NCBI RefSeq assembly: GCF_000971175.1 | Contig: NZ_BBLY01000005.1 | Span: 1 to 64,000, forward strand | Direction: 5' to 3' | Origin: Demequina pelophila | GTDB lineage: Bacteria; Actinomycetota; Actinomycetes; Actinomycetales; Demequinaceae | Length of the DNA stretch: 64,000 bases | Part shown: piece by piece, positions 9,437 through 47,488 of the stretch | How positions within the stretch are numbered: the stretch's first letter is position 1 | How the letters are laid out: every line of letters begins with the position of its first letter | Notes under the pieces: model-generated | The model's database searches: none | Seen by the model: the letters and a program-made list of their open reading frames with translations, nothing else | Told to the model about the DNA's origin: nothing | Position numbers and translations under genes: made by a program

Positions 9437-11605
9437 ATGGCTAAGCAGGTCGACACGGCGGTTCTGGCGGACATCGCGGGGGGCGTGCACCACGATCCCC
9501 ACGCTGTCCTGGGACCCCACCAGGGCCCGTCGGGCTTCACGGTGCGGGTCTACCGCCCCATGGCGGACTCCGTCGAGATCGAGACGATCGACGGCCGGTA
9601 CGCGGCCGAGCACGAGCAGGACGGCCTGTGGCGCGCCGTGGTCCCCACCGCGGAGGTCCCCGACTACCGCATCCGCGCCGTGTACGGCACCGACGAGTGG
9701 GTCGCGGACGACCCGTACCGCTTCCTGCCGCTGCTGGGCGAGCTCGACCTCCACCTCATCCGTGAGGGTCGCCACGAGCGCCTGTGGGACGTCCTCGGCG
9801 CGCACGTGCGCCGGTTCGACTCCGTGCTGGGCCAGGTCGAGGGCACCGGCTTCGCGGTGTGGGCCCCCAACGCCCGCGCCGTCCGCGTCGTGGGCGACTT
9901 CAACCACTGGCAGGGCGCCGGTCACGCGATGCGCTCGCTGGGCTCGTCGGGCGTGTGGGAGCTGTTCATCCCGGGCATCGGCGCCGGCACCGCCTACAAG
10001 TTCGAGATCCTCGACCGCAACGGCAACTGGCTGCAGAAGGCCGACCCGCTCGCGCGTCGCGCCGAGCACCCGCCGCGCACCGCATCGGTCGTCGAGGAGA
10101 GCCACTACACGTGGGGCGACTCCGCCTGGCTGGGCGAGCGCGCGGACGCGCAGGCGCACCGCAGCCCAATGAGCGTCTACGAGGTCCACCTGGGCTCGTG
10201 GCGCATGGGCCTGGGCTACCGCCAGCTCGCCGACGAGCTCGTCGAGTACGTCCAGCGGCTGGGCTTCACCCACGTCGAGTTCCTGCCCGTCATGGAGCAC
10301 CCGTTCGGCGGCTCGTGGGGCTACCAGGTGTCGGGCTACTACGCCCCCACCTCCCGATTCGGCAGCCCGGATGAGCTGCGCCACCTCATCGACCGCCTGC
10401 ACCAGGCCGGGATCGGCGTCATCCTCGACTGGGTCCCCGGCCACTTCCCCAAGGACGAGTGGGCGCTGGGCCGCTTCGACGGCACGCCGCTGTACGAGCA
10501 CGCCGACCCGATGCGCGGCGAGCAGCCCGACTGGGGCACGTTCATCTTCGACTTCGGCCGCACCGAGGTGCGCAACTTCCTCGTCGCGAACGCGCTGTAC
10601 TGGCTGCAGGAGTTCCACGTGGACGGCCTGCGCGTCGACGCCGTGGCCTCGATGCTCTACCTCGACTATTCGCGCGAGGAGGGCCAGTGGCGGCCCAACG
10701 AGCACGGCGGGCGCGAGAACCTCGACGCCATCGCCTTCCTCCAGGAGGTCACCGCGACGGCGTACCGCACCTCCCCCGGCGTGACCATGATCGCCGAGGA
10801 GTCCACCGCGTGGCCGGGCGTCACCCAGCCCACCAACCACGGCGGCCTGGGCTTCGGCCTCAAGTGGAACATGGGGTGGATGAACGACACCCTGCGGTTC
10901 ATGGGCGAGGAGCCCATCCACCGCTCCTACCACCACCACTCGGTCACGTTCTCGCTGATGTACGCCTTCTCCGAGCAGTTCATGCTGCCGCTGTCGCACG
11001 ACGAGGTGGTCCACGGCAAGGGCTCGCTGGTGGACCGGCTGCCCGGCGACCACTGGCAGAAGATGGCGGGCCTGCGCTCGCTGCTCGCCTACCAGTGGAC
11101 CCACCCCGGCAAGCAGCTGCTGTTCATGGGCTGCGAGTTCGGCCAGTACGGGGAGTGGAGCGAGAGCCGCTCGCTCGACTGGTGGCACCTGGACGATGCG
11201 CTGCACTCGGGCGTCCAGCGCATGGTGGGCGACCTCAACCGCCTCTACCGTGAGACGCCCGCGCTGTACGAGCGCGACTCGGAGCCGGGCGGCTTCCAGT
11301 GGATCGACGCCGACGACTCGGACCACAACGTGCTGTCCTACCTGCGCTTCGACTCGCAGGGCGGCATGGTCGCGGTGGTCGTGAACTTCGCCGGCATCCC
11401 GCACGAGGACTACGAGCTCGCGCTGCCCCAGGCGGGCGGCTGGAGCGAGGTCTTCAACTCGGACTCCGACCTGTACGGCGGGTCCGGCGTGGGCAACGGC
11501 GGCTACGTGCACGCGACGGACACGCCGCGCCACGGCTTCCCGGCCTCGGCGAAGCTCCGCGTGCCTCCGTTCGGCGCGCTGGTGCTGCGCCCGGCTCAGG
11601 GCTGA
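9437..11605 (+). CDS. glgB: 1,4-alpha-glucan branching enzyme
   Basis: Branching enzyme of 722 residues. It cuts alpha-1,4 glucan chains and rejoins them as alpha-1,6 branches. Two N-terminal beta modules (the second, CBM48-like, with [18 protein letters not shown] near 140-158) precede the GH13 barrel. The catalytic residues are Asp401 (DGLRVDAV) and Glu454 (MIAEES). It lies 30 bases after glgE and is probably co-transcribed. The gene runs into the repeat and hairpin block at 11626-11858, which should end transcription from both sides. Confidence 0.95.
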
Positions 11606-11625
11606 CGCCGGCCGCCTCACCCACC

Positions 11626-11709
11626 CGCGTCACTGCTCCACACACGCGCGTCACTGCTCCACACACGGGAATCACTGCTCCACACACGCGCGTCACTGCT
11701 CCACACAGC
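11626..11709 (+). repeat. Tandem array of four 21-bp units after glgB
   Basis: Four consecutive units start at 11626, 11647, 11668 and 11689 with core GTCACTGCTCCACACA. The third has GGAATC in place of CGCGTC. The period is exactly 21 bp, two turns of B-DNA. There are no spacers, so this is not a CRISPR. Degenerate copies in the opposite orientation follow at 11727-11748 and 11805-11858. Confidence 0.9.
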
Positions 11710-11740
11710 GAGTCGCCTGGCTCGCCGTGTGGAGCAGTGA
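11693..11740. repeat. Long hairpin formed by the last direct and first inverted unit
   Basis: Bases 11693-11706 pair perfectly with 11727-11740 (14 bp). After one A/C mismatch, 11708-11712 pair with 11721-11725, leaving an 8-base loop. It may be a folded RNA or an extruding palindrome. Confidence 0.75.
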
Positions 11741-11760
11741 CATGCCTGCTAGATCAACGG

Positions 11761-11804
11761 AAGCGCCCCTTGGCCGGACCATGAGGTCCGGCCAAGGGGC
11801 GCTT
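11761..11804. terminator. Bidirectional terminator-like hairpin, perfect 20-bp stem
   Basis: The arms 11761-11780 and 11785-11804 are perfectly complementary around the loop ATGA. It begins AAGCGCCCC and ends GGGGCGCTT, so a short A/T tract is present on each side. Its place between convergent glgB and the TPR gene fits a shared terminator. Confidence 0.8.
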
Positions 11805-11858
11805 CTGTGTGGAGAGGTGACCTGCCTGTGTGGAGAGGTGACCTGCCTGTGTGGAGGG
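11805..11858 (-). repeat. Inverted tandem copies of the 21-bp unit
   Basis: About 2.6 copies with core CTGTGTGGAGAGGTGACCTG start at 11805, 11826 and 11847, again with a 21-bp period. They approximate the reverse complement of the array at 11626-11709 (13 of 15 core bases). The whole block is therefore a large inverted repeat around the 20-bp hairpin. Confidence 0.8.
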
Positions 11859-11870
11859 GGGACGCCCCGC

Positions 11871-12782
11871 TCAGTACAGCGCGGACGCGAGCTTCTGGCG
11901 CGCCTGGAGCACCCGCGGGTCCGCGGGGTCGGAGACGTCGAAGAGTTCGATGAGGCGGGCGCGCACGCGCTCGCGCTCGTCGCCCGCGGTCACGCGCACC
12001 ACGTCGATCAGGCGGCCGAACGCGTCCTCGACCTGACCGCCCAGGACGTCGAGGTCCGCGACCGCCAGCTGGGCGTCCACGTCCGCGGGGTCGGCGGCCG
12101 CGGCCGCGCGCACCGCATTGAGGTCCGCCATCCGCGAGCGCGCCATGAGGCGCACCTGCGCCCGGCCGCCCCGCGCATCGGCGTCCTTGGGGTTCTCCTT
12201 GAGCGCCTGGTCGTAGGACGCCTCCGCGGCGTCGAGGTCGCCGCGCTCGATCGCGTCGTAGGCCGCCTGGTGGAGCGGGGGCAGCGGCTCGGGTGCCGGC
12301 TCGGCGGGCGCGCCGGCGCCCGCTCCCCCGCCGGGCGCGCCCTGCGCGCCGGCGGCACCGGGCAGCCCCGCCTGCTGAGCGAGCTGCAGCAGCTGGCCCA
12401 GCACATCCCGGAGCTGCTCGGGCGAGGCGGAGCCCTGGAACAGCGGCACGGGCCGCGCCCCGACGAGCGCCACCGCGGCCGGCACCGCGTTGACCTGGAA
12501 CGCCTGCGCGATCGCGGGCTGAGCGTCGACGTCGCACACTGCGGAGATCAGCGCGCCCTGGCTCTGGGCCACCGCGGTCTCGAGGTCGCGCGCCAGCTGG
12601 TCGCTCGCGCTCGACACGGAGGACACGAACGCGATCACCACGGGCGTGGTCATCGAGGTCTGGGCGAGCTCCTGGAGCTGCGCCTCGTCGATCGTCTCGA
12701 GGCCGGACTCGGCCCGCTTGTTCTGCGCCGCGAGCGCGGCGAGGTCGACGGCTCCGCGCAGCTGGCCGTTGATGTCGGTCAT
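11871..12782 (-). CDS. Thioredoxin-like/TPR co-chaperone-type protein
   Basis: Cytoplasmic protein of 303 residues. The N-terminal half (~1-125) is a thioredoxin-like fold (TTPVVIAFVSSVSSASDQLA, then VPAAVALVGARPVPLFQG). It lacks the CxxC redox motif: SSAS stands in that place. A Gly/Ala/Pro-rich linker (~140-165) leads to TPR-like helices (~168-300). This layout matches the tetratricopeptide thioredoxin-like family (YbbN/CnoX relatives), which act as holdases or adaptors. Its ribosome-binding site TAGGAG contains the stop codon of the lipoprotein gene upstream, so the two are tightly linked. It is the last gene of a three-gene operon. Confidence 0.8.
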   Translation of the reverse strand: MTDINGQLRGAVDLAALAAQNKRAESGLETIDEAQLQELAQTSMTTPVVIAFVSSVSSASDQLARDLETAVAQSQGALISAVCDVDAQPAIAQAFQVNAVPAAVALVGARPVPLFQGSASPEQLRDVLGQLLQLAQQAGLPGAAGAQGAPGGGAGAGAPAEPAPEPLPPLHQAAYDAIERGDLDAAEASYDQALKENPKDADARGGRAQVRLMARSRMADLNAVRAAAAADPADVDAQLAVADLDVLGGQVEDAFGRLIDVVRVTAGDERERVRARLIELFDVSDPADPRVLQARQKLASALY

Positions 12783-34877: not shown

Positions 34878-34998
34878 CGCGCATCGGCCCGCGCCCTGCC
34901 CGGCCGCCCCGCGCATCGGCCGCCGTCCCGCCCGGCCGACCCGCGCATCGGCCGCCGTCCCGCCCGGCCGACCCGCGCATCGTCCGCCGTCCCGCCGC
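34878..34998. repeat. Four tandem 32-bp units between rpmE and rho
   Basis: Units start at 34878, 34910, 34942 and 34974. Each opens CGCGCATCGGCC or CGCGCATCGTCC and continues with CCGCCGTCCCGCCCGG. The two central copies are identical; the first is degenerate and the last truncated. Each unit contains the GGMCGATGCG motif once. No open frame of credible composition covers them. Confidence 0.85.
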
Positions 34999-38629: not shown

Positions 38630-38750
38630 CGGACACTCCGCACTCCACTCCGGACACTCCGCACGGATTCGGTCGCGACACGCGGATCGCGAGGGCCGAT
38701 GCGGTGGCCGGCCACGGCGTGTCGCCCGCCGGTCCGTGCGGAGTGTCCGG
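38630..38750. repeat. Repeat and long cruciform-type inverted repeat between DUF389 and ABC genes
   Basis: CGGACACTCCGCAC occurs at 38630-38643 and 38651-38664, exactly 21 bp apart. The second copy is extended (38650-38667) and pairs perfectly over 18 bp with 38733-38750. Inside, 38675-38683 pairs with 38717-38725 (9 bp), and a GGCCGATGCG motif lies at the centre. It separates convergent genes and could terminate both. Confidence 0.8.
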
Positions 38751-47248: not shown

Positions 47249-47287
47249 GCCTGCCGCATCCGCCGACCGGCCAGTCCGGCTCGGCCT

Positions 47288-47425
47288 CGAGCGAATCGTG
47301 TCGCTCGGAGCGCCTTCTCGCGTCCTGCAGAGCGAATGGTGTCGCTTCCCTTCTGAGCCCGCCCATGTCCACACGTCACGAATCGCTCCCTGAGACGCAT
47401 CGGCCTGCCGAGAACGACACGATCC
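47288..47425. repeat. Repeat and hairpin module between TRIC and thrB
   Basis: AGCGAATCGTGTCGCT (47290-47305) and AGCGAATGGTGTCGCT (47331-47346) are 41 bp apart; each folds into a short stem (the first is 7 bp, 47288-47294 with 47301-47307). A reverse copy CGACACGATCC lies at 47415-47425. The 240-bp convergent gap has no gene. Confidence 0.7.
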
Positions 47426-47488
47426 TCTCGAGCGGGCGCCGGCCGGGCGATCAGGCGAGCAGGCGCGCAACCAGGCGCGCCGGCGTGA

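Follow-up and report, generated by a model that had tools for sequence, protein, structure and literature searches.

The window analysed here is the whole stretch of 64,000 nucleotides at positions 1 to 64,000 of contig NZ_BBLY01000005.1 of Demequina pelophila (RefSeq assembly GCF_000971175.1). Within it, the gene for the glucan branching enzyme GlgB and a gene for a TPR protein converge on a gap of 265 bp, which is almost entirely occupied by an array of short repeated units (A units) around a hairpin. The features of this junction are as follows.

9437–11605, plus strand: glgB, glucan branching enzyme, converging from the left (Pfam GlgB_N, CBM_48 and Alpha-amylase).
11629–11644, minus strand: A unit 1, left arm, outermost (TGTGTGGAGCAGTGAC, 0 mismatches).
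11650–11665, minus strand: A unit 2, left arm (0 mismatches; 21 bp from unit 1).
11671–11686, minus strand: A unit 3, left arm (1 mismatch).
11692–11707, minus strand: A unit 4, left arm (0 mismatches; partner of unit 5 in the predicted fold).
11726–11741, plus strand: A unit 5, inverted (1 mismatch; compact hairpin with unit 4 in the predicted fold).
11757–11808, no strand: GC-rich hairpin with a perfect 21-bp stem and a 4-nt loop, without a T-tract; other Demequina have plain hairpins here.
11806–11821, plus strand: A unit 6, right arm (0 mismatches).
11827–11842, plus strand: A unit 7, right arm (0 mismatches).
11848–11863, plus strand: A unit 8, right arm (1 mismatch).
11871–12782, minus strand: TPR protein gene, converging from the right (Pfam TPR_20).

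The large inverted repeat that an initial annotation had described at this convergent junction was recovered both from the sequence and by repeat finders, and the two genes were supported by Pfam. The same sources placed the four minus-oriented units of the left arm, as had been claimed, at an exact 21-bp period (starts at 11629, 11650, 11671 and 11692; spacings of 21, 21 and 21). The right side had been counted as about 3.6 inverted units; it contains four (11726, 11806, 11827 and 11848), so that left and right are balanced 4:4. The repeating unit had been given as 21 bp without spacers; the units measure 16 bp, and their conserved sequence is GTCAC-NNN-TCCACAC, with three free bases. The perfect hairpin reported in the centre is present, with a stem of 21 bp rather than 20 and a 4-nt loop, and its perfect part lies at 11760–11805; when extended to 11757–11808, it comprises 23 of 24 possible pairs.

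By fold prediction, the 265-nt array region has a folding energy of −183 kcal/mol (z = −13.8), well outside what chance would give. Units 1–3, the outer ones on the left, are predicted to pair with the three right units and unit 4 with unit 5 (11726), the central hairpin making up a second branch. No T-tract follows the hairpin, and no terminator-like site was found in 11400–12100. More distant Demequina have a plain hairpin in this place, which makes it probable that the central hairpin is the ancestral terminator, acting in both directions.

The 2.68-Mb genome was searched with the 16-bp unit. TGTGTGGAGNRGTGAC gave 76 matches at ≤1 mismatch (0 for the reversed pattern), and GTCACNNNTCCACAC gave 105 (4 for the control). 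The A units group into about 38 intergenic elements, nearly always as an inverted pair, and the distance between the innermost inverted units was 81 bp (24 elements), 82 bp (5) or 90 bp (8) in 37 of the 38. The 21-bp period, thought to be exact, is indeed the commonest spacing from unit to unit across the genome (27 of 47); spacings of 16–20 and 23–25 bp and two of 34 bp also occur. Class I elements, of 118 bp, have a single unit on the left, followed by variable sequence around GCTGATATC, the core doublet CGACACGCCGnCGACACGCCG and two units on the right, 21 bp apart, and class II elements, of 106 bp, contain two CGACnACCAnCTACCC motifs. A few A elements carry other hairpins, the window copy among them; it is an atypical, expanded member of the family, in which the innermost inverted units are 34 bp apart. 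The NNN bases of the two arms matched in 10 of 34 cases against 7.5 at random (P = 0.18), and covariation in class I elements was nil. The elements read outside the window were a sample of the total.

A second family (P) was found by scanning the window for further large-loop palindromes.

38653–38747, no strand: P element of 95 bp at a convergent junction, composed of an arm (GACACTCCGCACGGA), an 8-nt spacer, a core (beginning CGACACGC), an inverted core, a spacer and an inverted arm.

The P arm GACACTCCGCACGGAT had 80 matches in the genome at ≤2 mismatches (1 for the control) and, on inspection of the match list, these included 37 pairs, every one exactly 79 bp apart. In the 28 P elements that were read, the arms are nearly invariant, cores (CGACACGCCG / CGGCGTGTCG) stand at fixed positions and the rest is nearly random, the pairwise identity of the interiors being 42% against 31% expected from composition and 44% from column composition. 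On its flanks the 95-mer has a single invariant G-C pair and a Y/R base, giving conserved ends YG...CR. A constraint on the P geometry itself is best indicated by the exact length, kept although the interiors are not shared. No double compensatory changes were seen in the P arms. The 7-nt spacers between arm and core are complementary in 22% of cases against 39% by chance (none of 20,000 permutations was as low), and they look as if the internal loop of a folded strand were kept open; a folded single strand, and not the duplex, may be what is recognised. A directional consensus in the P spacers was dropped, as it did not rise above the null.

Two further features of the window were recorded. 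Units of 32 bp are repeated in tandem (3.7 copies, 93% match) at 34878–34996, inside an intergenic region of 478 bp, and a third convergent junction, at 47249–47488, holds a long-loop palindrome (ATCGTGTCGCTCGGAGCG...GAACGACACGAT).

For the position of the elements, genes were called with a simple codon-usage script and left uncurated. Both A and P elements are intergenic, except at two borderline gene calls. Counted in this genome only, A elements occupy 14 convergent, 20 codirectional and 3 divergent junctions, and P elements 9, 18 and 1, respectively (combined, 23 convergent, 38 codirectional and 4 divergent). At codirectional junctions, the element is closer to the upstream stop than to the downstream start in 30 of 34 cases (P = 6e-6), with median distances of 28.5 and 89 bp, respectively. 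At several convergent junctions both gaps are below 50 bp, which leaves scant space for another terminator.

The 10-bp core CGACACGCCG is common to the A and P families and also occurs in comparable elements of other Demequina and of other genera of the order. The core doublet CGGCGTGTCGnCGGCGTGTCG is dispersed in about 12 Demequina (27 copies in the window genome, 36 in G048, 20 in G011 and 15 in G047; 0 for the control), where it sits within differing arms. It is likewise dispersed in other genera (up to 38 copies in g71 and up to 9 in g62, with controls almost nil), and there too the inverted arms on either side are unrelated in sequence. In 32 of 44 Demequina, two cores stand in inverted orientation with 28 bp between them. 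At the glgB/TPR junction itself, a palindromic element with other arms is present in at least nine species (G006, G011, G048, G024, G041, G044, G049, G002 and G020), the arms in G011 and G048 being GCGGCTCCGCCACACA / TGTGTGGCGGAGCCGC. The condition that the initial annotation had itself named as refuting its proposal, a unit confined to this locus and without kin, does not hold: copies of the unit are spread through the genome, and sister species have related elements at the same junction.

Sharing of junctions extends beyond this locus. In G048, 6 of 20 sampled loci lie at a junction strictly orthologous to one with an A element in the window genome (P = 1e-4 if 4% of junctions are occupied by chance, a fraction that was assumed, and with some loci preselected), and with G011, G006 and G054 included, hand inspection placed about a dozen of 31–33 loci at such junctions. 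The apparent shared junctions L042/L147 and L062/L146 and the partial match L050/L123 were dropped on inspection. A second junction, at the stop of the left gene of L052, holds at least five arm types in the same gap across about 20 species, and the element is absent in others. Orthologous sharing, together with the differences in arm type and the absences at the same junctions, indicates that the elements are old, partly position-stable, partly dispensable and dialect-changing.

Other observations were made in the relatives. In genus g71 (L162–L177), the elements with core doublets are found in repeat-rich regions of kilobase length that appear to be non-coding, and the inner parts of the g71 arms (GGGGGnAATTGCA...) occur in alternative complementary versions. 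Among the matches listed for G351 and G292, nearly all core doublets in each point the same way over long stretches, which suggests that their strand is biased with respect to replication or to the direction of genes. A short motif, GCATCGTCCC / GGGACGATGC, recurs in and outside elements of several Demequina genomes (L136, L140, L142 and others).

The repeats, their dispersal, geometry, location and conservation pattern, the sharing of junctions and the dialects were all computed. The explanation that we favour, with a confidence only a little above even, is that the array belongs to a superfamily of non-coding mosaic palindromes, intergenic and REP/BIME-like, in which arms and cores would be sequence-specific sites held at a fixed geometry and the whole would act as a local bidirectional transcript boundary. 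Judged from the genomes compared, the superfamily extends over Demequina and some related actinomycetes. Each element would be built from two kinds of site, outer arms in lineage dialects (GTCAC-NNN-TCCACAC in A, GACACTCCGCACGGA in P) and inner cores (CGACACGCCG), which lie at fixed distances, inverted and in some cases in tandem, immediately 3' of genes. A candidate trans-acting factor would recognise arms and cores as a set, either on duplex DNA or on an extruded hairpin; this recognition would keep the sites and their spacing under selection, and the dialect would drift in concert. When transcribed from either side, the palindrome would give a very stable hairpin bounding both converging transcripts. 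Both the binding factor and the transcript-boundary role are inferred from the sequence. The boundary role would not be universal, since some elements of sister species lie outside canonical-looking hairpins. The A and P arms appear to behave as sequence-specific sites and not as pairing partners, because the NNN bases match at the random level and compensatory changes are lacking. The protein-binding array suggested in the initial annotation is thereby partly supported: the fixed distances between arms, the free bases within units and the lack of compensatory changes favour sequence-specific sites over a plain RNA hairpin, and the genome-wide data are not explained by a terminator alone.

The explanation closest to such a terminator, that the elements are repeated bidirectional RNA terminators or 3'-end stabilisers in which only the RNA hairpin matters and the similarity arises from drift and gene conversion, is one that we hold to be doubtful. 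It would account for elements placed directly after stops and between convergent genes, often with no space for another terminator, for the extreme folding and for the plain hairpins of distant species at the glgB junction. It would leave unexplained why arms and cores are near invariant while the bases between them vary freely, why the inter-arm spacing is exact and compensatory changes are missing, why no T-tract is present, and why class I elements keep an unbalanced 1+2 layout though the extra unit is without a partner. Chromosome-organising or topology sites, comparable to the BIME-2 gyrase sites and with no role at transcription ends, would explain the inverted symmetry, the spread over contigs, the 11-bp distance within the core doublet and the spacing of about two helical turns (21 bp from A to A, about 20 bp from P arm to core). 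Purely structural sites would not be expected so close to stop codons, and the spacing does not in every case amount to whole turns, which makes this reading improbable.

Rather unlikely, too, is the view that the elements are non-autonomous hairpins mobilised as folded single-stranded DNA in the manner of REP/RAYT or attC by an enzyme that would recognise an imperfect hairpin with an unpaired loop and copy it into gene ends. The imperfect palindromes do keep an unpaired spacer, and the order of outer arm, spacer, inner arm and variable loop is that of attC (PMC2727003); a stem bulge is likewise needed in E. coli REP (PMC8266576). At one junction, an element may be present, absent or of another class from species to species, and the copy number ranges from 0 to about 75 within the genus; both would also follow. 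However, a Y1/RAYT transposase is absent from all 44 of 44 Demequina, neither target duplication (among 28 P elements) nor an autonomous parent was seen, and elements are common to orthologous junctions. Moreover, copies share almost nothing outside the sites and are hence not recent, and the recognition of a hairpin does not need a fixed loop length.

Compared with the REP/BIME-like reading that we prefer, a more far-reaching proposal is decidedly tentative: the elements might be geometry-locked nucleoprotein sites of about 97 bp, with the core CGACACGCCG across genera and arms that switch dialect genome-wide at stable orthologous gene ends, bound by a co-evolving factor that would organise, recombine or insulate the chromosome. 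No description of such elements in this actinobacterial order was found in the literature searched. The REP/BIME concept would be extended to this order, without a known mobiliser and with exact spacing despite nearly random interiors; shared junctions and the arm–core geometry predict a specific factor; and position-conserved, dialect-shifting repeats provide a natural experiment on whether such palindromes are selfish or functional.

Several known identities were considered and rejected. No match was found in plasmid, phage or viral records, and a plasmid, phage or viral origin was set aside. The Rfam covariance models detected only a tRNA in the window and nothing in 20 element loci, and a conserved RNA secondary structure was discarded after alignments A1, A2 and A3 gave no real covariation. 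A C-rich, rut-like approach for Rho fits the flanks in G000 but not the G-rich arms of g71, and is thus not a general mechanism. The A unit contains TCCACA, as in a DnaA box, but this is lost in the G048 dialect (CGCCACACA). DNA uptake sequences occur in the order of a thousand or more copies per genome, and the copies found here were too few for that identity.

As in the DNA uptake sequences of Neisseriaceae (PMC3630211), a short motif is found, often as inverted pairs at gene ends and in species dialects; in Demequina, however, the units, about 100 per genome, are part of a rigid composite element, which has a conserved core as well. With MITEs (Correia, RUP) the elements share a length of about 100 bp, inverted termini, intergenic position and many copies, but they are without target duplication (0 matches of 3–6 bp among 28 P elements), a shared interior or a parent transposase; no parent transposon was seen among the fetched loci. 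Integron attC sites (PMC2727003) likewise combine an outer arm, an unpaired spacer, an inner arm and a variable end, with conserved boxes and a free loop. An unpaired central spacer of this kind was found in the P spacers and not in the NNN bases of the A arms, and the GTT/AAC triplet of the R-box is absent from GTCACNNNTCCACAC and GACACTCCGCACGGA. Unlike attC sites, the Demequina elements are dispersed singly, no cassettes were seen and the loop length is fixed.

The nearest likeness is to the REP/BIME elements of E. coli and Pseudomonas (GTAG and CGTC super-families; PMC3733652). REPs are defined by a terminal GTAG (or CGTC) tag beside a self-palindrome of 20–40 nt and are RAYT-associated, and Actinobacteria are not mentioned in the main text of that survey (PMC3733652). 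The A and P consensus sequences have no GTAG tag at their ends, and a RAYT-driven REP was rejected, as the Y1 transposase (PF01797) was found in 0 of 44 Demequina genomes while positive controls were detected. Both groups are many-copy intergenic palindromes arranged as inverted pairs and mosaics, lie 3' of coding regions between codirectional and convergent genes, are rare at divergent promoters and show stem irregularities. The Demequina elements differ in that they are longer (95–118 bp), carry two conserved types of site at a fixed geometry, are built from a unit that is not itself a palindrome, and appear in different dialects at shared orthologous junctions.
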